Assembly: GCA_009869945.1 (NCBI GenBank)
Contig: WIXG01000251.1
Span: 1 to 64,000, forward strand
Source of the DNA: Mesaphorura yosii
Lineage: Eukaryota > Arthropoda > Collembola > Poduromorpha > Tullbergiidae
Direction: 5' to 3'
DNA length: 64,000 bases
Shown: in pieces, positions 13,321 through 46,261 of the stretch
How the letters are laid out: each line of letters starts with the position of its first letter
Position numbering within the stretch: the stretch's first letter is position 1
Made by a program: the position numbers and the translations under genes
Notes under the pieces: model-generated
Database searches by the model: none
The model's input: the letters and a program-made list of their open reading frames with translations, nothing else
Told to the model about the DNA's origin: nothing

Positions 13321-15729
13321 CTACGGCAAAGGTGAATAGAAGCACATGTACACGTCTTTCAGGAGCTGTTTGAAGAGGCCAAATTTGTCGTCTTCGAGCC
13401 CAGCAACGGCGTTCATCGACAGCGGGCCTTTGTTTTTGTCTTCTTGAATCGACCGCACTTCTTCCAGCCATGCGCCGAGGTCGGGCAGCTTCTGGACTCG
13501 CGGCTCCAGCACGAATTCACCACCACCGCTGTACTGCTTCAGTCGGTCGCGGTTCGCCATCGAATCAAAGAACAGCCACGGGTCGTTCGTGGCCTTGGCG
13601 TCGACCGCGTTGGCGCGTGGCACGCGGACGAAACTCACAAAATGATTGTATTTTATGCAAATAACGGCGAACAATCGAAGGAGGCACGGTGAAGTCCGCC
13701 CGGGCGTGGGTGTCAGCCTGTCGGTCTCCAAAATCTCCGAAATGTCCATCGTCAGGTTCGGGACGATACCGGCGAACGTCTTGTAGGAATTCCCGCTTCG
13801 TGGCATTTGCAGGATGAAGCACGGATCCGGGCTCCCACGCAGCTGAAGATTCTGAAACTGGAAACTCGCGACGAGAAGTTGCTGGACAGTCGGCACTTGC
13901 TTCATCGCCGCCGCCGTCGCTGGCTCAGGGAGCAGGATCTGGTGAAAGAAGTCTCCGTAGTCTCCTTCCTGTTGCTGACCCGCATTCGCGTTCTGGGCGA
14001 CGCGGACGAACGCTGGAAGGCGAAACACGTTCTGGAAGAGGAGCTGAAGGAATTCTTGCGTATCCATCTCCTCACTGAGGAATTTGTCGCTGAGGTACGC
14101 CATTGACTGGCGGAGACGCGTCACGTTTTCTCTCGGCACGTAGTGCGTCCGGCGGAGTTGATTCACAATGTGACGAAGCTCGGCTTGAACCTTTCGGGCG
14201 TCGGGCTTCGCTTCGCCTTGGTTTTGTTCTTGGGCTTGAGCAGGCGGAGACGGAAGGTCCAATTCCAGTAAATTGTCCAAGACGCTCGTGAAGGAGAAGA
14301 GGCTGAAAAGCGCCGAGTCCATGTAACAAGAGTTCTTGTCGCCCTGAATTCCTTTCAGACTGGTCGAGCTCATGCTTGTGTAGGTTGCGTGAGTCCAGGA
14401 CGGTGTGAGAAATGGAGACTGAGACGCTGGCGCTGGCTCAGGAGTCTTGGGGGGCTGGGGCCGCTCCGGCGCGGGCCATGACGACGACAGTCCCTTCCTT
14501 GGCAGCTCTTGGAATACTGGCGGCGACGGCCACGACGTCGATGTCGACGAAGTTCTTGGCTGGGCTGGGCTATTATTATTCTGCTGCTGCTGGCGCTCAT
14601 GCTGCGGGGAACGTCTTGAAAACGATCTCATATCAAAGGGTTTGAGGGTACTGAGCTGATACTCGTCATCAGGCACAGGCGAGATTTGAGTCGATATCGG
14701 AGTCGGAACTGGCTGGCTGACTCGGCTGACTACCGCTGCATTTGAATACCGGCGCTGGCGCCGGCCCACGCGTGAATTTGGGCCGAAGTCGAATCCTTCA
14801 CCTTCACCAAAGTCCATGGTAGTGGCAGTGTCAGCATCGGCTTCCGCTTCCGTTGGCATTGAAGAACAAGAAAAGCCCTTCTCTTGCCTTTTGTTGTCGC
14901 CAGTATAAGCACAGGCATGAGTTTGAGGCTGAATATGGTGACTGTGATTGGACTTGTGAGTCGGAGTCGGCAGCTCAAAAATGGGAGGGCGATGGGTCGA
15001 CAGGGCCGAGTTGAGGCTTGGGCGACTCGGGCCATGGCTGCTGCTTACTGCTGATGTTGCTGCCGCTGCCTGCCCTTGTATATGGTCTGCTCGGTTGTAA
15101 TCAATTATCTTTGGCGGGTTCCAGTCATTAATCGTTGTCGATGCCGATGATGCAGTTGCAAATGGCGATGACGAAACGGTGGCTGTGGCTGCTCCCAGCG
15201 GTATGTACTTCTTGGCAATGTTGAGTACCAGCGATGAGCGTGATAATGACGGCGATGGCGGTGACTCGGCTACGGACGCTGACGCTGCTGGCTCAGTTCC
15301 AGGCTCCTTCTCTTCGGCCTCTGCCACCCGAACTGGATTACATACTGTGGTGGTCGGCTGGTTCGACGTGTTCGTCTTGTCGAAGTTCCTCTCCAGAATC
15401 AGTCCATTAATATTCACAAAAGCGCCGTGATCCGCCTCGCACGTGAAGATCTGAACATTATTGTACCAGCCAGAGCCCAATCCGAGCGGACGATCAAACT
15501 CGATCCCGGCACAGACTTCATTCTTGATGTGGATGTAGCCTAGCCATTTGATCGTGCCCTGTTCCCAGCTTCTGATCACCTGGAATTCGTCGCCCCGCTC
15601 GTACAGCCAGACCACACGATCTCCAAGCCTGAGACCGCTGGGTGTGGTGGTTATAGACTCAAATCCCATTCCAGAAAGCGAGGCGGAGGCGGATGACGAA
15701 GATGCGACTCTTGTTGACTTATTTCCCAT
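13321..15729 (-). CDS. CYLD: CYLD-like deubiquitinase (CAP-Gly + USP)
   Basis: An intronless frame of 802 residues from ATG 15729 (MGNKSTR, which fits an N-myristoylation consensus; frame is open upstream but without an ATG). A CAP-Gly-like domain occupies about residues 35-115 (GTIKWLGYI, GIEFDRPLGLGSGWYNN). A long Ser/Pro-rich low-complexity region follows. The C-terminal USP domain starts at GIQGDKNSCYMDS with catalytic Cys near 468, His near 696 (KYNHFVSF) and Asp near 722 (WLFFDSMANRD), matching CYLD in order. CYLD removes Lys63- and Met1-linked ubiquitin and restrains NF-kB/IMD-type and JNK signalling. Unusual points: one CAP-Gly where vertebrate CYLD has three, and the zinc-binding B-box normally inserted in the USP domain is absent, only about 16 residues joining the flanking motifs. 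Lack of introns may indicate retroposition or intron loss. Confidence 0.88.
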   Translation of the reverse strand: MGNKSTRVASSSSASASLSGMGFESITTTPSGLRLGDRVVWLYERGDEFQVIRSWEQGTIKWLGYIHIKNEVCAGIEFDRPLGLGSGWYNNVQIFTCEADHGAFVNINGLILERNFDKTNTSNQPTTTVCNPVRVAEAEEKEPGTEPAASASVAESPPSPSLSRSSLVLNIAKKYIPLGAATATVSSSPFATASSASTTINDWNPPKIIDYNRADHIQGQAAAATSAVSSSHGPSRPSLNSALSTHRPPIFELPTPTHKSNHSHHIQPQTHACAYTGDNKRQEKGFSCSSMPTEAEADADTATTMDFGEGEGFDFGPNSRVGRRQRRYSNAAVVSRVSQPVPTPISTQISPVPDDEYQLSTLKPFDMRSFSRRSPQHERQQQQNNNSPAQPRTSSTSTSWPSPPVFQELPRKGLSSSWPAPERPQPPKTPEPAPASQSPFLTPSWTHATYTSMSSTSLKGIQGDKNSCYMDSALFSLFSFTSVLDNLLELDLPSPPAQAQEQNQGEAKPDARKVQAELRHIVNQLRRTHYVPRENVTRLRQSMAYLSDKFLSEEMDTQEFLQLLFQNVFRLPAFVRVAQNANAGQQQEGDYGDFFHQILLPEPATAAAMKQVPTVQQLLVASFQFQNLQLRGSPDPCFILQMPRSGNSYKTFAGIVPNLTMDISEILETDRLTPTPGRTSPCLLRLFAVICIKYNHFVSFVRVPRANAVDAKATNDPWLFFDSMANRDRLKQYSGGGEFVLEPRVQKLPDLGAWLEEVRSIQEDKNKGPLSMNAVAGLEDDKFGLFKQLLKDVYMCFYSPLP

Positions 15730-16774
15730 TTTACTCAGCAATGACGTGATATTTTCTGATAAGAAACGCCGAAAGTTACACAATAATGTGTCATTGAATT
15801 AGCCCAGTGGCTGACCGATGATATGTTTTACGAGACTTACCAAAATCCGTTTGCCAAGCGACTGGCTCCGTCCGTGTCAAACGTTAGGCAGGATAAGGCC
15901 AAGACAATCAGTATCAGTGAAAAAACACTGAATTTTGGCTATTTTGGTCGTGATCGATGGTTAAAAATAAGTTTTGAGTAGCTGCCTCGCTGTTTCAGGC
16001 TTCACGAGCTTCAGATTCCCTATCAATCGGTTAGCAGCGGATTCTTTCGCTTCTCAATAGCTCCACCCACCGTTGTCAATCATCCCGATATGCTCGAGCC
16101 TTCTCTCCGCGACGCGTGCCGGAGTTCCGTTATGTAGCAAGTAAACGTCAAAGTCAATTCGTTGCGAAGGGTTTCGTAACTCTAAACTGCACTACGCTTG
16201 GACTGAAACTGGACTGCGCTATCAGTAATGGTTTTCAGGCAATAAATCGATGCGCAGCGCACGCAGATACACTTTGAATTTTTCTGTAAAATTCATAGAG
16301 TAAATTCATAGTTTTGACTTCCTCCACCAACTGTCACAGCTGCGCTAAGAAATAACTGAATGAAAACTTGTCTTAATTGAATCAAAATCCCTCGCATTTG
16401 ACGGCGTCGTCTTCGCATACATTTTGATGGTGTTTGTTGTCATTTCCATTGCCATTTTCCTGTGCTCGGACACAAAAGCGAGAACAAAGCGGCACAAGCT
16501 ATCAGCTGAGTCACGAAAGATCATAAGAATGGAAAGATCAGCATAAACTGTTCAAGAAATTATCGATCACACAATCGAAATCGAATCTTGTCTGGAAATC
16601 GCAACGCAACTTCGCAACGTAACGCAACTCAACGAGATTGGTTTTTCGCAATTTCGCAATAGCAAGGTGTAGCAAAGCACCAGAACAGTCAGAAAAGCAA
16701 TAGCACGCAATCCATTAACGTGTGATTAGTGACTTTGACTTGTTAGTTAATTGGTTGGTGATTACTGCTTCAGG
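15730..16774. other. Divergent promoter region between CYLD-like and CFAP57 genes
   Basis: About 1 kb between two head-to-head starts. A cluster of GCAAC/GTAAC words at about 16598-16635 resembles RFX half-sites but no full X-box is seen. No gene. Confidence 0.3.
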
Positions 16775-27454: not shown

Positions 27455-29061
27455 CTAATTTTCTCCATATTGTTGCTGTTGCTGCTTATATTCCCGAATC
27501 CACTTACGAATGTACGCTCGCTCTACGTCTCTTGCCTGCACTACCGATGGCGGGTCGTTTGAATTTGCTCCGCGGAGATCAAGATGGTGGGCGCCCTCTG
27601 CAATGATGACCACTCCCACAGATCGCACGCTAAGCCCGCTGATGTTTCGCATGACGCCACCGGCCGACCACGGATCGAGGAGCCCGTTGCTGAAGACCAG
27701 GTTGGAGGCGGCTGCGAGGGCAGCCCGAGCCCGGCCTCCGTACTCGAGCGTGGCCATCGCCGGGCGAGGACGGACGCCCCAGCGGGCTTGGCACTGGGCG
27801 GCATAGGAGTCGTAGTCCCATGGTGTTGGTTCGAAGAAGTCGTTCAGGCCGTCGGTGCACATCGGCATGACCATTTCGGTGCACGCTTGGTAGTCCCAGC
27901 CACGGTCACCGAGGGCAGACGTGGCCGCCGCCCCGAAGTCCAAGCAGGTCGCCGCGCCTGTGTAATTCACGTACACCGACAACGCCTTGAAGAGTGACTT
28001 GAGAAGCAGCTTGCCATCTGTCACATTGCTGTCGGGTAGCTTGCTGCAGAAGACTTTGATCGGGTACGGCGGCAGAGGAGCGAGGAAATTCGTCTCGTAG
28101 GGGTAGTCCACCATAGCGAGGTTGCCGTACACGTCCACAAGCCAATTCTTCAGTCCCGTCACGTCCGTCGCGTTGTTCAGCGGGTTGCAGAGCCGCCAAG
28201 CGGAGGAGAGCCATTGCCGCCCTGCTTCTGTCGCCCCGAACTCGTTGATGAACGCCCAGGACCTCCGGACGCTGTCCACACATTGACTCGACTCTCGGGC
28301 AAAGTCTGCAGTGACGATCCGTCCGAAACTGGCGCACGGCGTTTGTTCGAGGAACTGAGCGATCGGGGCCGACGCGGCGATTCCCCCTGCGACGATGTGT
28401 GGGTACTTCATTCGGAGCCAGGCGGTCAGCATCCCTCCGTACGAGCCACCAAACGCGATAACGGGCGCCTGCTCGGCATGGCGCGAGCTTTTGAACCACA
28501 TCACAACCTCAGCGAAGTCGGCCAGTGCCTGCTCGGATGTGAGGTAGCCCGTTTGGGTTGGGGAGCTGAAGGAGTCGTTGCCGAAGGGAAGGGAGCCGCC
28601 GTAATAGCGATGTTCGACGAACAGGAGGAGGGCGCCAAACTCCGGCGCAATGTCCCACATGAAGCCAGTGTTCTGAGCGAAGAGTTCGATGTCGCCTTCG
28701 TTGCCCGTGTAGAGGAAGATCGGGCCGGTCGGGGAGCGCCAGAAGGTGTCATTGTAGAGGTACTTGATTGGGAAAGTCAGGCGGGGTGATGGAGTGAAGG
28801 AGAAATGGTCCAGCTGCATACATACGCAGAGACGAGAGAAATCAGTGTCAATTTACCGGGCAAGCAAGAAGCAACGGATGAATTAATTAATTCGTCTCTT
28901 ACCTGAACCGGATAGTAATCTGATTGGAAGATGTACGGACTCTCCGCCGTCGAACTTGAGGCTCCTTCTGCGGTTCCGACGTGGGTTAAACCAATCACAG
29001 CCAGAAGTAAGCCCATGGCCATCGGCACCGAAAGGTGAGGACGTTGGAGTTGGAGCCCCAT
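27455..29061 (-). CDS. Lysosomal Pro-X carboxypeptidase-like serine peptidase (S28)
   Basis: Two exons on the minus strand (28903-29061, 27455-28813; 89-bp phase-0 intron) give 505 residues. A leader (MAMGLLLAVIGLTHVG region) precedes the S28 signature YPVQLDHFSF, spliced across the junction. The catalytic triad is visible: Ser near 177 in FGGSYGGML, Asp near 433 in NGLLDPWS and His near 462-463 in AEGAHHLDL. Several N-glycosylation sequons and paired Cys fit a secretory or lysosomal enzyme. The family comprises PRCP (removes a C-terminal residue after proline) and DPP7 (removes X-Pro dipeptides); length and motifs suit both, with PRCP somewhat favoured. It is tail-to-tail with the discoidin gene and head-to-head with the chitinase. 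Confidence 0.92.
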
Positions 29062-30422
29062 GGCAGTCTTCTTATAACGTTATTAGAGCCTAACTAAATG
29101 TAAGCTATCAGTGATTCCACAATTCCACAGTCCACTAAAATTTGATCAATTTGACGATGAATGTACACAAGATTCGAAACCACACTAGTGTATGTTCTAT
29201 TGCTCGTTGCATTCGACGAACTGTGGATGATTATGCCTCAGATGTGGAAAAGAGGAAAGAAGAAACGGCAAAGAAGGGCGAGGAGCAAAAGCTTCAGCTT
29301 TAAAGCTTCAAGTTTGAATGTGAACTGAAACTGACCTCTTATCTCATTCTAATCTTAATCTTGAAGGCTGTAGTCTGCTCTGCGTAGTCTGCCTGTCTGG
29401 AGACATAAGAGAACGAATGCCTCTTCGTTACTTTACTATACAGCGCAATTTAGCAGCGCATCGGAAGAATAATTGGACCAAAGAGAGGCCGAGATGTATG
29501 GAAAATTCTTTGCATTCAAATGAGCCAGAATACCGAAATCCCCAAATCCCATAATGCCATAATGCCAGAAAGTCCAGTGCAATTATTCTATTTCTAAATT
29601 AGCATTGGCATTAGCATTTAAATTAATTGCCCGTCTCCGGCAGCGGCAGCAAATGGAACAAAGGTGTTGAGGGACGGTTCTCTACCCGAGAACCGTGTCA
29701 ACGTGTTCGATATCACGCAAAAAAATGAAACCAGAACCCATGCTCCGAAATTCTTAATTCGAATTATTTTATTACATTTTTTCAGCCCTCAAAAAATTGA
29801 ACAAAACTCCAGCGCAGCGCACAACTCTCCTCTTCACAAAGGCGAGAATGGAATGGGGGCACGCTTCGTGCCAGACCACCTAGCATGCTCACGTCTCGCC
29901 ACGCTTTGCGAACACAAAAAGCCGATCCAATGTGAATTAATCGTCCATTATACGCCATCCTTCCTATGTCCTCATGGGCTAGAGTCCGTGGACACTAAAC
30001 AAAAGGATCATCGGCCGAAGTACGTGATTCAGCAATCGGCAGGCAATGGAATTGGCACGAGATTGCACGACCGCGACCCACGAAGAGTTGATTGACAGGT
30101 GAAACGAGCACAGATGTGTTAATATTAATTGAAACACGAATGAGCAATCGGCGAGCATGTGAATTGTAAAGTAAACACTTCAGGCAGACCCGACCACTGG
30201 CCACGAAACTGTCAAGTGTTCTGTTTTTCGTACCACCATCTGATAAGAATAGCCATTCTGCCCCTTTCTCAGCCTGATTTAGTAAGCATTAGTTATTGAT
30301 TAGTATACTTTCAGTAATCGATCACCAACTCGATCCTCGACTCAGTTCTAGTCAGATTTTTCGAAACGAAGGCCTAGTTTATAATTTGCACTGTATTGTT
30401 AAGTATCATCGCAGCTGTCAGA
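29062..30422. other. Divergent intergenic region between carboxypeptidase and chitinase genes
   Basis: 1.36 kb with presumed promoters for both flanking genes. A run of AATGCC/ATTAGCATT-like words at about 29525-29625 is low-complexity. The open frame at 29664-30095 shows no features. Confidence 0.3.
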
Positions 30423-31743
30423 ATGTTTTATTTCGTATTTTTACTGCTCGCTGCCAGCTTCGCTGCCTCTACCGACCTTTCGGCGGCTCCTGCGCCACAG
30501 CCACAGACCAAAGCAGGTGAGCGAGCCAAATAATTTGCCGCTAATCGCAGGTAACGTACGATTTTCAGTGGCTGACGTTTCTTCCTCGATACTCACAGAT
30601 GAGCCGAAGATGATCTGCTATTTCACGAGCTGGGCCCGCCACCGACCTGGAAACACGTCCTACACTCCCGAAGACATCGACCCGACCCTCTGCACGCACA
30701 TCGTCTACAGTTTCACGTCGTTGGACCCCGACACGCTCACCATTCGGGTCGACGACCCGCAAACTGACATCATCGACGGCTACTACGCCAAGGTCACCGC
30801 CTTCAAGCAGTACGGCATCAAAGTGACGATCGCCATTGGCGGGTGGGGCGACTCGGGAGCACAGCCGATCGACAAGTACTCGCGCATGATCACGAACGCG
30901 ACATCACGGGCCCGCTTCATCAGCTCCGTCGTCGAATTCCTGCGCTCCTACAATTTCGATGGGCTCGACCTCGACTGGGAGTATCCTCGCTGCTGGTGGG
31001 TACTGCCGTGGGACGAAACGTGCCCTGGCCCCGCGTCGGACAAGCAGAATTTCGCGAACCTCGTCGTGGAGCTCCGAACGGCATTCCGCCCGTACGGATT
31101 TCTTCTCAGTGCGGCGGTCGCCGGCTCCGAACTGACGACGGCGCTCGCCTACGACATCCCAACTCTCAGTGCGGCGCTCGACTGGATCGGAATCATGGTT
31201 TACGACCTGCACGGGCCGTGGACGGGGACGACGGGTTTCCACTCTGCCTTCAGTCTCGTTAAGGCGCCGGTGCAAAACGCAGGCTTCAACGTGATAGACA
31301 TTGTCAACTATTGGCTAGAGCGGGGCGCGGCGCGCGAGAAGATTGTCGTTGGGATTCCGTTGTACGGCAAAGTCTTTCAGCTATTGAACGAGAGCGACAC
31401 GAGAGTCGGGGCGCCAGTCAACCCAAACGCCGGCGGAGGATACGACTACTGGAATTTCTGCGGTGCAGTCGACGGCGAAGAGGGGCCGGGCGCAGGCTGG
31501 ACGAAGGTGTACGTGCCGGACATCGGCCCATACGCGTACAAGGGCGATCTGTGGACTTCGTTCGATGACCCGCAGATCCTCGTGCAGAAGGCGCAGTACG
31601 TGCGCGACGAAGGGCTGGGCGGAGCGATGATTTGGGCGCTGGACACTGACGATTTCAATGGACTCAACTGCGGCCAGGGACCGCATCCACTGCTGCGACC
31701 GTTGAGCGACACGATTCGAGGCCGCAAGAGCGGGCGTGTGTAA
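30423..31743 (+). CDS. GH18 chitinase, secreted
   Basis: Two exons (30423-30516, 30569-31743; 52-bp phase-1 intron) give 422 residues. A signal peptide (MFYFVFLLLAASFAAS) precedes the GH18 barrel: KMICYFTSWARHRPG, a conserved IKVTIAIGGWGD, then FDGLDLDWEYP with the catalytic Glu near residue 169, MVYDLHGPWTG and GGAMIWALDTDDFNG near the end. All active-site signatures (DxxDxDxE, YDL, WALD) are present, so it should be active on chitin. There is no C-terminal chitin-binding domain or Ser/Thr linker, as in several single-domain insect chitinases. Likely roles are cuticle turnover, gut or immune function. The intron is read without a stop in the downstream frame, so retention would not truncate the protein. 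Confidence 0.93.
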
Positions 31744-35169: not shown

Positions 35170-37067
35170 ATGGGCACAAATTGCAAGCTGCACTCTGACC
35201 GAGGCGTCCAGAAACTGCTGCAGGACCTTCATCAGCTGCTCCATGAAAGCAAGTCTGCCGATACCGTCTTCTTCGTCGGCGTTAAGGAAGTCCCGATGCC
35301 TTGTCATTCGTTTATGCTCAAGCAGAGGTAAGATTATTAATTGTAGATAAGCTGATAGCTAAAAGTTATCAATTCGAATACATTACATGCTTTGGTCTTC
35401 TTGATCGCAGGTGCAAAAGCTACCGAAGTGACCAGCAGCGATTCCCGTCCACAAGCCCGGAGCTCTTCCAGCTCTTCCTGAATTACGTGTACACCGGCCG
35501 CCTGGCCGTTGAAGAGTCGTGCCTGCTCGATCTTCTCTGCCTCGCCGCCGAGTTCGGGATGGAGGACCTCGAAGAGACCTGCGAGCAACTGATTTACAGC
35601 TGCGTTGAAGGATCGCCGAGCAAAGCATGCCAAGTGCTAAGTAGCGCCGTGTCGAAGAAGCGGAAAATGACAGGCACCGGCGGCACACGTCCTCGCTCGC
35701 TCCAAGCCATCCTGACGCACTGTACTCGCCTCATCGGCGAGTCACCCGCCGAACTCTTCCAGTCCCCCAAATTCCTGTGCATTCCCTCCGACACGCTGAT
35801 CGCAATCGTTTCATCCGACCAACTCTGCCTGGAGGAAGAACAAATTTGGAGGTACGTGCTGAAGTGGGCGCAGTACAACGCAGGAGTCGACACGCCGCTC
35901 CGGGAGTGGAGCGAAGAGGAACGGCTGCAGGTTGCCAAATACCTCAGCCCCGTCATCGGCCACGTCCGCCTCCTCCTTATCGACTCGAGAATCTTCGCGG
36001 AGGAGGTCGAGCCGACGGGCTGCGTGCCGATGGCCCTGAGCCTGGAGAGGTACCGCTTCGCGGCGCTGCAGGCTCCGCTCACTCTCACGACGACGACCAC
36101 AAGCACGCTCCACGCCCACGCCATTCCACGGAAAATGCCAAAACTCTTCCAGTCTTCGCTGATAATCCACAACCCGGCGATGGCGCGAAAATTGAATGAA
36201 TGGCACGGGCAAGCTCAATCCCAAGCAACTACGACGACCGCGGCGGTGGCGGCGGCTACTTCCACAACTTCATGGAAATGCATTTACCGGGCTTCACTCC
36301 ACGGATTCTCAGCCGACGTGTTTCATAAACACTGTGACGGGCACGCGCCGACGTACACGATCGTCCAGGTACAAACAAACAATGCAAACGGCAAAGGCAA
36401 TGCCAACGCCATCGGAAATGGCAGCTGCGCGTGGATTTGTGGCGGCTACACGGACGTGCCATGGAGTCGGCCACGAATGCCAAAATACGTAGCGAGCAGC
36501 AAATCTTTCTTATTCTCACACACCGGCGCCGGTGAGCCCCTCCGCTTCACCATCCAGCGCAAGCACTTTGCAGTCTGTCACCACGAAGAGAGTGGCCCCA
36601 TTTTCGGGGCCGGGGCGGATCTGTACATCGCGTCGAATTGTGACACGCCCGCAGCGGACTCGTACTCGAATATCGGGCACACATACGCGTACACGCACAC
36701 GGCAGCCACGCCGGAAGAGAGCTCGGGCTCGTGCCCGAATCCGAAAGCAAAACCAGGCAACGGAGAGCCTCCGCTGTTGCTGGTCAACGGCAACGGCCAC
36801 GGACCGGGGACGCTGACTCGAAGAACGGGGCCTCCACCTGCAACATTGCCATTGCCACCGACTCCATCGCCTCCTGGAGCTCAGCACAGACTCACGCCGA
36901 CGTACAACTTTACGGTGACGGACTACGAAGTGTTTATCCCGATTCCGGCGGCGGCTGTAGCTGCAGCGATAACGACGACACCCGATGAACCACAACTGCC
37001 AGAGCGCGAGCGCATTCACCTCCATCAGAATGGGAATCCTCATCAGAATGGAAACGGATACAAATAA
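35170..37067 (+). CDS. BTB-BACK-TLDc domain protein
   Basis: Two exons (35170-35327, 35411-37067; 83-bp phase-2 intron) give 604 residues. The N-terminus is a BTB/POZ domain (ADTVFFVG, MPCHSFMLKQR, SPELFQLFLNYVYTGRL) which mediates dimerisation and often cullin-3 binding. A BACK region follows (CEQLIYSCVEG, LCLEEEQIWRYVLKWAQYN). The C-terminal third is a TLDc domain (IYRASLHGFSADVFHKHCDG, GGYTDVPWS, SFLFS, SGPIFGAGADLYIASN, ending FTVTDYEVF). A Pro/Gly/Asn-rich insertion of about 100 residues separates the last TLDc strand from the rest. TLDc domains occur in oxidative-stress protectors and in V-ATPase regulators. AATAAA lies at about 37130. Confidence 0.85.
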
Positions 37068-38324: not shown

Positions 38325-39081
38325 ATGGAGCTATCATTCAAAGTAATTACTTTGCTGAGTCACCTGCTGATCTTGGCCACCAACACTCAGGCGCAGTACG
38401 TCACCGTCGGCCGCTGCCCCAAACTGTCTGGAATCCAGAACTTCAACACGACCGCCGTAAGTTAATTAACCAGTAGGCCAGTAGATTGCGTACTTATCAG
38501 TAAATTTAATTTTGTAGTGATTCTGAATTGAACTCGGTCGTATTTTTGTCTTTTAGTATCAAGGTCTTTGGTACGAAGTCGAAAAGTACTGGTTCGTGTT
38601 CGAGACGACGACTTCCTGCGTCCGAGTTACGTACCACAATTCGACGAGCGCCGACGGGAGTTTCCCCGTGGAAATCCTGCAGTACGACCACCTGACTCGA
38701 CAGACGTTCAATAATCCCGGGCTCACGCGATTCGCAGAGGCTGGTCGAGATGGGAGCGGTGACTTTGTGCTGGACCTGGTCATCACGCAGTCACCGATCC
38801 CGTTCACCGTCAAGTGGCCGTACCTCGTGCTCGGTACGGACTACTCGAGCTTCACGATCAAGTGGAGCTGTCGGCAGGCGGGGCCCCTCCAGGTGCAGAA
38901 TATTTGGATCCTCTCCCGGGACACGGAGTACAGACAGAAAACGAAGAAGCAGGTGTACGCAATTCTCAAGAAACTCGGGATCGCCACGCACCCGCTGCGA
39001 AGGTCAGATTTGAGGAGCTGCCCCGAGAAGGAAGGTACGGTGGAGCATCACGGCGATGAACAGAACACAATCAGCGATTAA
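38325..39081 (+). CDS. Apolipoprotein D-type lipocalin
   Basis: Two exons (38325-38456, 38557-39081; 100-bp phase-0 intron) give 218 residues. A signal peptide (MELSFKVITLLSHLLILATN) precedes a Cys-Pro and the lipocalin GxW motif in YQGLWYEVEKYWF, then a series of beta-strands with paired Cys (CVRVTYHN, YLVLGTDYSSFTIKWSC), a WILSRDTEY strand and a C-terminal helix ending in RSDLRSCPE. The order matches ApoD, Lazarillo and insecticyanin-like lipocalins that carry small hydrophobic ligands such as lipids, pigments or pheromones. The intron position right before the GxW motif is also typical of lipocalin genes. Confidence 0.88.
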
Positions 39082-40792: not shown

Positions 40793-43113
40793 GGCTTTCG
40801 GGAAAAGTGAGCAACATACTTGGTAATATCTGAGAGTCCAAAAAAGTCATCCCCACTCGATTCTGATCAGTATTGCGGGAGGAGATAGTTTGGGCGCAAA
40901 GTGGTTTTTATAAAGGGTTTTCCCATCTCAAGTACAAGTTTTTAATCGCCCTGACGGTCGCGTTAATCTCGAATGCACTTGGATTTGGATTTTCGGAGCT
41001 CCAGTTTCATTTTCAAATCCTGTCGCCTGAACGAACTTCAGGAGTCATTTGTTCGAGGCTGACATTGACGTTCTTTAAATTCGTGAACGAAATAAACTTT
41101 ATTTCATTCGACAATGCAGGGACCCCGTTTTGAGACTTTTCGACTTAGATTCAAGCACCACAGATTGTCTTCGAACTCAATGCCGAAATTTGCATTTTGA
41201 ATTGGTGCTGAGCGGCTAACTCTATAAAGACGCTGACATTTCCTCCATCTGGCTTTCGCGAAAACGATACCGATTAGATGCTACCTAATTTTAGTTACAG
41301 TTTCAACGCTTTTCGTTGTCAATTTCAATGTAAAATCAATACTGAAGTTGGTCGGGAAAACACGAGGGATTGTAACCTGCGAGTGGCGAAGGCTGTTGAC
41401 TGAATTACTGGGCATGCAGTTTCATCGACCTGCCTACATATTGAATTATTTTATAGGGCTCTAGAGCAGCCTCTGCCTTCTATGGGACCCGACAATACCT
41501 TCCCTTTTACTTACCAGTGCCGGCAGCCGCGTGTCTTGTGAACTCATGACGGACGCCATTTACACTTCGACAACGGAACTGGATTTTTATGAACCTCGTT
41601 ATAAACTTAGTAATTCCCTTCAGATTCGCACAAACTGATAAACTAATTCAGAGTAGTTTTTGTGCAAACTCTCGAGTGCTGATGTGAATGAGGCTTTTGT
41701 CCCTGAGATAAGGCATGCTTTTTGTGTTAAAAATAGACGGAGACCACAGCTTCTTAGCTGGGCTACTGCCTTGTGTATGCAAATTAATTGGCACTGTCCG
41801 ATCATGTCCATCCTGTATTGACAACGCTTAAGCGTTGTCAATATTTAATTACGTGCACATTATGCACCAACTTGCGCAGATTCAATCTAAGAACAGTCCA
41901 ACCCCTTCGGACCTTGACTCCTGACAGCGGGCGCCAATCGCGGATGAAGGATCATAAATTTGTAGTAATCCTCAGAAGGATTTCTAGCTCGAAGCAAAGT
42001 AATTGTCCCTGGAAGAGACCGGTAACCTTCTAACTCTAAAATTTGTAACACGCTCGAACTCCGGACAGCATGTGGAGGCTAATTCGGTGAGATCGATACG
42101 AAAATTTGCGAAAACGCGCGAAATGTATCGTGATTTGTTGCAACTTAAGGACGAAGAGTCTTTTAATAAGGAACGTTACAATGTTGCAATGAAGAATGAC
42201 CATGGCATTAATAGCAGGCAAGAAGCAGGCCAGCGTACGCGTGCCGCGTGCCATGCCGGTGCTTTGACGCGATTCACTCGTGCTCATCACGAAAGATGAG
42301 AAGACAAATGCATAGATGCTAAAAATAATCTCAGCCACGGCAAAGCAAAGAAAGGCAAAGGTAAATCTTTTGTTCGTGGCCTTCGTGTCTGTATCAGTTT
42401 TCACTCACTGCTCAAGACGACTCGAGTTCGAGAAAGAAGAGGACAGAATTCCCGTCACAGCCAGTCACGGATCATCGCTTTAATTACTCGCAATGAAATC
42501 TCAGATTCTTATCTCGTTCAAAATCGTGGTTGACATTGATTATTTCATTTCCACGTTGTGTTTGTATTTATGAAGTCGTTTACACTTGTCATTCATTCGC
42601 TGCTGCTGCTTGCTGCTTATGCTAATCTTCATCTTTCGTGTTTAGTCCACTTTGCTTGTTGTTGTCTTGATTTCTCTGAATTTGAGTGCTGAATTGATCC
42701 AAATTTGAAATAATGAATTGATCTCTTTTTGAAGACAAAGGCAATTATTGTCATCGAATCTGAGTCGGGTCAAGTCCAAGCGGCAGTGACAATTGCGGCT
42801 TGCCATTTGCGACTGCAATTAAATTTTGTCCCAGTTTACAAACTAACACCGAAATCAGAATTCAGAAGACAATCATTCCTAATCATGACGATCTTGATTT
42901 CTCTGCTTAGCTAATCATTGGCAATGCAGATCAGCCAATTCTCGACTATAAAAATGGAGTACGAGTCGGGAGAATTCGAAGCAGTTGTAAATCACCATCA
43001 ATTAAGGCTAGTTGAGCTCAGGAACCGTCGTGCAGTCAGATCAGTGCAGTTCCTCTTCAGATCAGTGATTAGTGCCGGTGAATATTAAGTTGGTGTTGGT
43101 CAGCGTTAGTATC
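40793..43113. other. Long intergenic stretch with a perfect palindrome
   Basis: No gene supported. A perfect 28-bp palindrome (arm TATTGACAACGCTT) lies at 41816-41843. A minus-strand open frame at 42036-42404 has two hydrophobic stretches but no ATG at its beginning and no splice partner I could find. Confidence 0.35.
41816..41843. repeat. Perfect 28-bp palindrome
   Basis: TATTGACAACGCTT followed directly by its complement AAGCGTTGTCAATA, without spacer. It can form a cruciform or a dimeric protein site. Confidence 0.85.
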
Positions 43114-43624
43114 ATGTGTCCGCGTCGTCTTCGATTCGACGTGCTGCTTGCAATCGGAATATTCATTTATCTCACGTCTCCAGTGCTGAGTTCGTACGAG
43201 GCGGAGCCACATCGTAAGTTAAGAACCATTACCAATGCAATAGTTTCATTGGCTTGGCTAATTAACTAAATTGACATTATTTGATTCATTAACAGATTAC
43301 GGAACACATCATCACTCGCCACATGTCGCCGGGCACGGTCACGGCCAGGGTTGGAATGCCCAAACTGGCTCCTATTACCACTACCACGTCCCACTCGTCG
43401 GCCAGCAGCAGTATCACCCCGAACCCCACCACGACAAGCACATCCTCTGGATCCTGGCCCTCATCCCACTCGCCCTCCTCGCCCTCCTTCCACTCCTCTT
43501 CCTCAAACTCCTTCCTCTCTTCCTGATCCCGACTGGTCTTGCCCTCCTCGCCCTCCTTCTACCTGGTGGGATGATGATGATGATGATGGCCATGATGATG
43601 ATGATGGGAATGGCCGCCATGCCC

Positions 43625-43660
<36 letters not shown>

Positions 43661-44516
43661 GGCGGTGGCATGATGATGATGCCCCCGATGAAGAGGGACA
43701 TGTCCGGCATGTTTGGAGCCGACGGCATTAGTCAGCAGATGAAGACCATTGGCGAGCTTCTGTTTGGGGACGTCACCCAGATTGTCGACCGATATTCGAG
43801 GTAAGTTTGCTTTTAACCTTTCAAAACTCGTCATTCATTGAGCACGATTTGACTGGAAATTCTTTTATAATTACAGGTCCCTCGACCTTGACAAATGCCC
43901 TGAACGCATCTCGTGCGAGATTGGGAGCGCTCTCTTTCCACCAAACGCATCGCGAACCTCCACCGCTCGCTCCTTCATGAATTACGTGTTGGAGAACGCC
44001 GTGCCGACTGGGAAAACGAGGGACTGGCTCACGACATGTGGCGACGCGCTGTTTGTGGGATCCGAATCGAGCAGCTGTGGGAGCTATCACTGCCGCCCGT
44101 CGTTCAGGCTGTATCCCGATGCCGGGTCGGATGCTGGCTACAACAAGGAATACTACAACTACAGCCAGCATGGCACGCCCAAACTTCAGCAGCCAGTTGC
44201 AGCTGTATCGGCGACGTCGGCTACTTCGGATTTCACACCAAAGCCAAGCACCCTGAAAAAGAGGACCAAGACAAAGTTCAAGACAATGAACCCATCGACA
44301 GCAACAGCGAGCACCGTCGCTGATTATCAACAGCTGTACAAAAGCAACGGCACATCGTCCGTGCTTCCGTCCGACACGAAAGCAGATCGAATCTCGTCGT
44401 TCCCTTACTCGTACTACGACTCGGCAGCAGCAGCAACGCAGCCCAACGAAGCTGAGAACGAACTCCGGTCGAATCAGCTGTACAGAAGATTCGGGACGCA
44501 GGTTGTACGTATTTGA
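43114..44516 (+). CDS. Secretory-pathway protein with a methionine-rich tract
   Basis: Three exons (43114-43213, 43296-43800, 43877-44516; introns 82 and 76 bp, phases 1 and 2) give 414 residues. A signal peptide (FDVLLAIGIFIYLTSPVLSS) is followed by a His/Gly/Tyr-rich segment (YGTHHHSPHVAGHGHGQGW), then about 40 very hydrophobic residues of Leu/Pro/Ile (residues 83-123) and, from about 126 to 175, a tract with about 32 Met including a run of twelve, broken by Gly, Ala and Pro. The C-terminal part has four or more Cys (DKCPERISCEIG, WLTTCGDALF, SSCGSYHC), Tyr/Ser-rich low complexity and ends RFGTQVVRI. The plus-strand reading is supported by the leader and consistent splicing; the His-rich frame on the other strand is its shadow. 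Family not recognised. Met and His suggest copper binding, but this is inference. Confidence 0.75.
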
Positions 44517-46261
44517 AGGAACGCGGTACGGCACATAAAACACTACTCTGGACCCTGAAAATTGTACTTTGACATCGTGATTCCGGCTTTTGACATTTGA
44601 CTTAGACTTCGACCTGACTTTCTATTTTCTCCTCGACTTGGACTTGAACATAACTAATGACGATTGACTGATCTTTCGACGTACTTTTGACAAATAGATC
44701 AGGCTCAGGACGCTGGTCTTGTTCTCTTAATTTATTTTGTTGCCTTTTTTATGTGCTATAATAAAGCAAATGCAAATGCAAACCGAACATTTTCTTCGCG
44801 CTATCTGCTACCTGTCTCGTGCATCGTAAATAATTATTATCTTTTGTGACGAGAAGTTCGCCTTTCTATAGCCGTTCCAGAGCTCAGTTCCTTTGTACGC
44901 AGTTCTTTCTCATTTTACATGATAAAACGAACTGGAGTCAGGAAACGAAACATGAGAAACGGTAGTGCAAATAACAGGTCAGCGGGGAATGCCCCACTGA
45001 CCAGGTCTGCCACCTCGCAGAGTTAATCCTGCTACGGTTTCAGCCAGTCGGAACGACGGAATTCCGACGAAATAAGCGTAATTGATAAACAGCGTCAGGT
45101 AATGCAGCGATGTGGAGCGATACCTGCTGCAAGTTGGCTCCAAGCTGTCGCTGGCAAGGTCGGTGGATTGCCTAAACGATTTGAGTTTCCTCAGCATTTT
45201 TGCAAGATTGTTGTAATTTCCACTTTCCAGAAGTCTCCGGCTTAAGCTAAGTATTTAGTCGCTGCGAAATGTGTGCGAACAGCGGACCGTAGGGTGGAGC
45301 AGAAAAAAGATGCAGTTCGGAAATAGCGAAATCAACATTTCTGTCCCGATTTCCAAGTGGCAGCATTTAGTCAAAATCGGAACGAAACGTATCCATTGTT
45401 TGTTTGTACTTAATTTTACACAAATGTTAACTACGGAGATCCTCGACGACGGTATCTGCATAACTTGAGTGCAATATGGTATAATTTCCATCCTTGGAGA
45501 CTACAATTACGGATTGTTTATTATGACCAAACAATTCGGATTTCGCTCTGCGACCTCATTTTCAAATGGACATGGTTTCGTGCAGAGTCTGTGCGAAAAT
45601 TTCGAAGTGAGTACTGTCAAAGCGAAAAATGTGCGGAATTTTTCGTTCAGGCATATTTTGGAAACAGGATTTCACAGCGACTGAATACTGGCCTTTAGTA
45701 AGTAAGCTCTTAGTAACAAGCGACAAACCTTAAAAGATGCGAGATGGCAGACTGTCGCTAAATGGTGTATTCCACAGGCCAGCCAAAACGAACCAATCAC
45801 TTAAATATTTTAAAGCGTGCGTCGTTACTGAATCGTGAGGGAAGTAAGTGGTTGTTTGCTATTGCTCCATTAGGGAAATTAAAAAGCCAAGTTCGAAGGC
45901 AGTCCACGACGAAGGTGCAAACAACGCATTCAATGCATCGGGGATGACGGATGATACCGGTTAGAGACCTAGTTGACTCAGTTCCAGGTCAATAATGGTC
46001 TAGCGCTTTACAGCTTTACGTTAGAAACCCAAGATGAAATGTAAATGTAAAGGTCAAGGTTCAGACAAGCAGATGGGTAATTTATCTACGAGTATACTTT
46101 TTTGTCAAGAAGACTGATCCGCCATTTGTTGCCAACCTTTATTGACAATGACATGATTACAGTAAATTTATTACAGGCGAAGAATCAATAAAATTACTAT
46201 CCGTATTGTGCATTTTCTATGTTAAAATTACGTTCGGTTTTCTTGACCTTTATTCTTCATG
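44517..46261. other. Intergenic
   Basis: AATAAA for the Met-rich gene at about 44760; AATAAA-like sequence for the STAT-like gene (minus) near 46185. No gene recognised between. Confidence 0.35.

Follow-up and report, generated by a model that had tools for sequence, protein, structure and literature searches.

How does a coding exon come to hold 32 methionines within 50 residues, and has such a tract been selected or simply tolerated? The question is raised by a locus on the + strand of a 64,000-nucleotide stretch of DNA (the window), for which a first-pass annotation had proposed a membrane or secreted protein with a leader, a Leu/Pro hydrophobic stretch and runs of 6, 5, 12 and 4 Met. Few homorepeats are as rare as those of Met, and a survey table in PMC6219797 lists 8 proteins that have two or more of them (at least 5 residues each) among 1,449,683 proteins from 122 proteomes. 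M-rich low-complexity classes are described as rare, and as usually combined with Gly in eukaryotes, in PMC11132505. The protein considered here likewise has runs of at least five Met with Gly as a companion residue (PMC11132505), and it stands out among Met homorepeat proteins by having three such runs within a single chain. The literature on proteins with poly-Met or Met-rich tracts included no such arthropod protein among the matches listed.

Methionine has a single codon, and a Met tract therefore leaves no room for a concealed record of synonymous substitutions. Set beside sister genes of the same genome that have no such tract, the locus offers a clean case in which to ask whether slippage was tolerated or selection was at work.

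Gene structure and coding evidence

Splice borders near those first proposed were tried by script, and the sole in-frame combination printed joins exons 43114-43213, 43296-43800 and 43877-44516 of the + strand through GT/AG introns into one open frame of 414 amino acids. The junctions that the first-pass annotation had placed at 43213/43296 and 43800/43877 were thereby reproduced, and its leader and hydrophobic stretch of about 40 residues fall at residues 1-27 and 83-123 of the model. The features of the locus are listed below, with residue numbers referring to the predicted protein.

42947..42952, + strand: candidate TATAAA box-like sequence (string match)
43114..43213, + strand: exon 1, with the start codon and a signal-peptide-like leader; ends in phase 1 with a GTAAGT donor
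43114-43194, + strand: leader, residues 1-27 (by inspection and hydropathy)
43214..43295, + strand: intron 1, phase 1 (GT...AG, in-frame combination)
43296..43800, + strand: exon 2, with a His/Tyr-rich segment, the Leu/Pro hydrophobic segment, the Met tract and a linker
43298..43441, + strand: portion of the His-rich segment encoded by exon 2 (residues 35-82), including SYYHYHVP
43442..43564, + strand: Leu/Pro hydrophobic segment, residues 83-123 (hydropathy, TRF)
43571..43711, + strand: Met-rich tract, residues 126-172, with runs of 6, 5, 12 and 4 and five single Met
43625..43660, + strand: perfect (ATG)12 array, the longest found in the genome
43801..43876, + strand: intron 2, phase 2
43877..44516, + strand: exon 3, with the Cys domain, a Ser/Thr-rich tail and the stop codon
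43896..44093, + strand: Cys domain, CPERISCE (C209, C215), W and CGSYHC (C269, C274) (alignment with five sisters, profile score)
44760..44765, + strand: AATAAA polyadenylation signal-like sequence (string match)

Codon use was compared between frames as synonymous codon choice in bits per codon, with amino-acid composition removed, after training on eight long ORFs of the window (Pfam matches were obtained for all five of those that were scanned). The spliced frame scores +0.125, against +0.159 for the training ORFs; the remaining frames of the joined sequence score -0.006, -0.164, -0.099, +0.088 (with 23 stops) and -0.117. Taken by itself, exon 1 has too few codons for a clear signal; at +0.072 it ties with another frame and lies below one antisense frame. 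The - strand also has an open frame with long His runs (43559-43834, 91 amino acids), so that the real gene could be an antisense one for a poly-His protein. That frame scores -0.305 bits per codon, however, and is in part the ATG array read backwards, whereas the splice sites, the sister genes and the polyadenylation signal belong to the + strand; we consider an antisense gene extremely improbable.

The TATAAA and AATAAA sequences at fitting places, the codon use favouring the + frame, the splice sites and the sister genes described below together argue for a real spliced gene, a supported reading under which the product would be a secreted or membrane protein. The first-pass case for a real gene had been built on the flanking exons, the leader and a Cys-rich C-terminal domain; it holds, and codon bias and sister genes can now be added to it, the Cys region being a domain common to the sisters. 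In the predicted protein, residues 7-28 are hydrophobic on the Kyte-Doolittle scale, 14 His fall within residues 33-82, and Cys occurs five times in the 'Cys-rich' domain (209, 215, 256, 269 and 274). There are three possible N-glycosylation sites (225, 296 and 359). Rfam and tRNA scans of the whole window gave no match.

A family of divergent sister genes

The first search of the genome with the Cys domain had one non-self match, a collagen-like frame (34% match, E = 0.22), which was rejected. A Cys-motif search gave 17 matches, with 8 in reversed controls, and only the gene itself and a locus termed L044 were kept as family. L044 encodes a leader, a hydrophobic segment and CIERISCE...CAKYVC. 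A similarity search of the genome with L044 found matches on contigs C151 (E = 1.6e-5), C157 (9.4e-5) and C348 (0.39), and a second motif search gave 12 matches, with 1 in the control, five of which are family (the gene itself, L044, L059, L060 and L064). L059 and L060 (G000:C157:102485 and 110036) share a contig, on which some 8 kb separate them, and are likely a tandem duplication. A FIPIPVVTVP-like pattern, taken from the end of the hydrophobic segment, matches L053, L059, L064, L044 and L072 (on C602) and is absent from the present gene and from L060, which makes it a common but not an obligatory feature of the family. We count L072 as a probable sister because its hydrophobic segment is that of the family, whereas its motif reads CMDKFICE and its introns are in phase 0/0.

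The sister models were built on splice sites of our choosing and encode 200 (L044), 281 (L053), 332 (L059), 200 (L060), 409 (L064) and 369 (L072) amino acids. Their plan comprises a leader, a Tyr/Gly/His-rich segment, a Leu/Pro hydrophobic segment of 40-60 residues and a domain with CxERxxCE, Trp and CxxYxC; the leader, the Leu/Pro segment and the Cys domain are all present in the protein of interest. The gene is not an orphan: this genome has five divergent sisters of it, and probably a sixth.

BLASTP aligned the product of the gene with that of L044 at 25% identity over 76 residues (E = 3e-5 as a single comparison). A profile of five sisters from which the gene was left out scored it at 14.5 bits, against 3.6 for the best of 2000 shuffles. 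When the same profile was run against 2,969 ORFs (at least 40 amino acids, from 51 sources, family loci removed), the exon-3 frame of the gene (15.7 bits) and its spliced form (14.5) led, the next ORF scoring 10.0. The motif match is not independent, because the first sister was found with a motif taken from the gene itself; masking the motif lowered the score to 1.8 bits, a value exceeded by 3 of 2000 shuffles. Nine columns are invariant over the gene and five sisters (C, E, R, C, E, W, G, C and C), among them the Trp and both later Cys, which lie outside the search motif. A phase-1 intron ahead of the hydrophobic segment and a phase-2 intron behind it are found in the gene and in four of the six sisters (L044, L053, L059 and L064). 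The second intron precedes the Cys motif in the gene but follows it in the five closer sisters, and L060 is modelled without intron 1. Taken together, these sequence comparisons make it very probable that the gene belongs to the family.

Over the Cys domain, the gene and its sisters are 18-21% identical, a divergence that would also suit a recent pseudogene in which the hydrophobic and Met tracts are the noise of decay. Against such decay stand the intact 414-codon frame and splice sites, a codon bias near that of the training ORFs and the conserved Cys, Trp and Tyr residues, and we judge a pseudogene quite improbable.

A Pfam scan of the protein at E up to 10 returned a single line, DUF3043 (E = 6.1), and no copper-transport family. 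The family looks distantly akin to DM4_12 (PF07841), whose C-x2-R-x2-C-E and later C...Y...C pair recur in it. In one DM4_12 member of the genome (L014, G000:C761:6341-6553, 40 bits), a leader is followed by Pro/Tyr/Gly-rich repeats of the PAYGAPP type, by a hydrophobic segment and then by the Cys motif, which is the order found in the present family. Comparison of the two Cys domains with hhalign gave a probability of 38% at 12% identity (E = 3e-4 as a single comparison). At E up to 10 the protein gives no match to the DM4_12 model, and it is absent from the seven genome matches to this family (four over the 22-bit cut-off and three weaker), L064 scores 13.3 bits against that cut-off, and L044 and two further sisters scanned have no match. 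Osiris proteins are arthropod-type secreted or membrane proteins with a leader and a hydrophobic segment, as in the present protein; it is not among the two genome matches to Osiris/DUF1676 (PF07898), nor was that family matched in the Pfam scan. Seven PBP_GOBP matches of the genome exceed the cut-off, as against none for the Or receptors (7tm_6); together with the DM4_12 proteins, this gene content suggests a hexapod that is not a winged insect.

No homologue was found in a large protein collection for the whole protein (7,996 candidates, E ≤ 0.001), for its residues 165-310 (176 candidates, E ≤ 1) or for residues 228-332 of L059 (45 candidates, E ≤ 1), although arthropod coverage of this collection is uncertain and all three results are weak evidence of absence. 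A sequence search of the PDB with the protein gave no match at E ≤ 1. The sister genes flag an uncharacterised arthropod protein family that Pfam leaves unnamed in the members tested.

The methionine tract and its ATG array

The count of about 32 Met in 50 residues proved exact. The protein has 36 Met in 414 residues (8.7%), 32 of them in the best 50-residue stretch (126-175), and the runs occupy residues 126-131 (6), 133-137 (5), 144-155 (12) and 159-162 (4). At an assumed Met content of 2.3%, a protein as long as this one would be expected to hold about 1e-17 runs of 12 Met, but this chance model is irrelevant because slippage makes runs. The corresponding DNA is an imperfect ATG array of period 3 (43570-43660, TRF) with perfect runs at 43571-43588 (6 units) and 43625-43660 (12 units), in agreement with the proposal of a microsatellite expansion inside a coding exon. 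Upstream of the tract, the Leu/Pro DNA also contains an imperfect tandem repeat, with 2.8 copies of a 24-bp unit (43452-43519, TRF), as would suit a slippage-prone region. Within the genome of 93,006,257 bases, an (ATG)6 pattern had 30 overlapping matches that merge into 18 arrays, with 2 matches for the reversed-pattern control; two of the 18 arrays lie within the 91-bp stretch of this gene, and none of the others is longer than 8 units.

Four other loci have at least seven ATG units (L020, L004, L001 and L002). L020 (region G000:C606:24745-24966, - strand) has an eight-Met run in a long zinc-finger-like frame and is a second coding case of poly-Met. At L004 (G000:C128:105653-108673) the array reads as poly-Asp in a long frame, where Asp runs of up to 12 residues are numerous, alternate with Ser/Glu and are encoded by GAT/GAC arrays. 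The arrays of L001 and L002 sit in short frames.

Part of the tract's length could have arisen in sequencing or assembly, with the gene otherwise as described, since simple repeats are error-prone and the tract is known from one assembled copy. Ala, Gly and Pro codons separate the four runs, however, and the frame is open throughout; we regard a partial artefact as very unlikely.

Five sisters in which residues were counted contain 0.6-2.5% Met, with a longest Met run of 2 and Leu runs of 3-7, and each has 2-6 His. Where the present protein has its Met tract, the sisters have a FIPIPVVTVP-like stretch (except L060) and a short linker. The protein also differs from them in a stronger His enrichment and a long Ser/Thr-rich tail. 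The tract is therefore particular to this gene, and the combination of Met and His is not a conserved feature, as the five sisters lack long Met runs and have few His.

Origin of the tract and possible role of the protein

The explanation that we favour, and consider reasonably likely, is that the gene encodes an ER-targeted membrane or extracellular-matrix protein of a small divergent family, whose hydrophobic segment was lengthened by tolerated slippage of an ATG microsatellite. The leader would send the protein to the ER, the Leu/Pro and Met stretch would sit in a membrane or hydrophobic matrix, and the Cys domain, with the three possible N-glycosylation sites, would be extracellular or lumenal and probably held by disulfides. 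An ATG microsatellite, translated in the frame that gives Met, may have replaced or extended the end of the hydrophobic segment and the linker, slippage producing the Met runs. Since Met shares with Leu its hydrophobicity and helix-forming tendency, the segment would stay membrane-compatible or sticky, which could explain why the runs persisted. Hydropathy in 19-residue windows exceeds 1.3 from about residue 79 to residue 163. An AF2 model of exon 2 from the single sequence is one helix over residues 79-157 (mean pLDDT 73, pTM 0.29), to which we give little weight because single low-complexity sequences favour helices; the AF2 model of exon 3 (pLDDT 40) was unusable. A hydrophobic surface or cuticle role, as first suggested, is possible, and a structural role at an apical or cuticle-secreting surface is our preferred guess, though we would put it at below even odds.

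Alternatively, the Met tract may itself be selected and functional, as part of a Met- and partly His-rich extracellular or membrane segment that binds Cu(I), as a reversible oxidation sensor or sink, or as a self-adhesive helix of a surface or cuticle protein. Such a tract would have evolved within an otherwise Leu/Pro-based family. The 14 His of residues 33-82 precede the 32 Met in 50 residues, and PMC11132505 cites a link between M-rich low-complexity domains and redox sensing in yeast. Outside the runs, too, single Met are enriched: residues 126-175 have 23 such positions, of which 5 are Met, whereas the rest of the protein has 4 in 364 residues, the start counted in (p = 5e-5). This enrichment extends beyond the present arrays and is at odds with purely recent slippage; it may reflect remnants of an older array or selection for Met. 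On the other side, an ATG array is just the DNA that slippage makes, and the five sisters have neither a Met tract nor strong His enrichment. Copper handling, proposed at first from the composition of Met with nearby His, is not supported: the Pfam scan matched no copper family, and the sisters have Met runs of at most 2 and 2-6 His. We consider a functional tract unlikely, and the tolerated extension of a hydrophobic segment remains our preferred reading of the locus.

Elsewhere in the window, Pfam matches mark frames for a protein with CAP-Gly and ubiquitin hydrolase domains (13321-15798, - strand), in an arrangement that recalls CYLD, for a peptidase S28 (27455-28852, - strand), for a GH18 chitinase-like protein (30403-31743, + strand), for a BTB/BACK/TLDc protein (35286-37067, + strand) and for a lipocalin (38557-39081, + strand). 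An imperfect tandem repeat with units of 25-55 bases occupies positions 1843-1961 (TRF).
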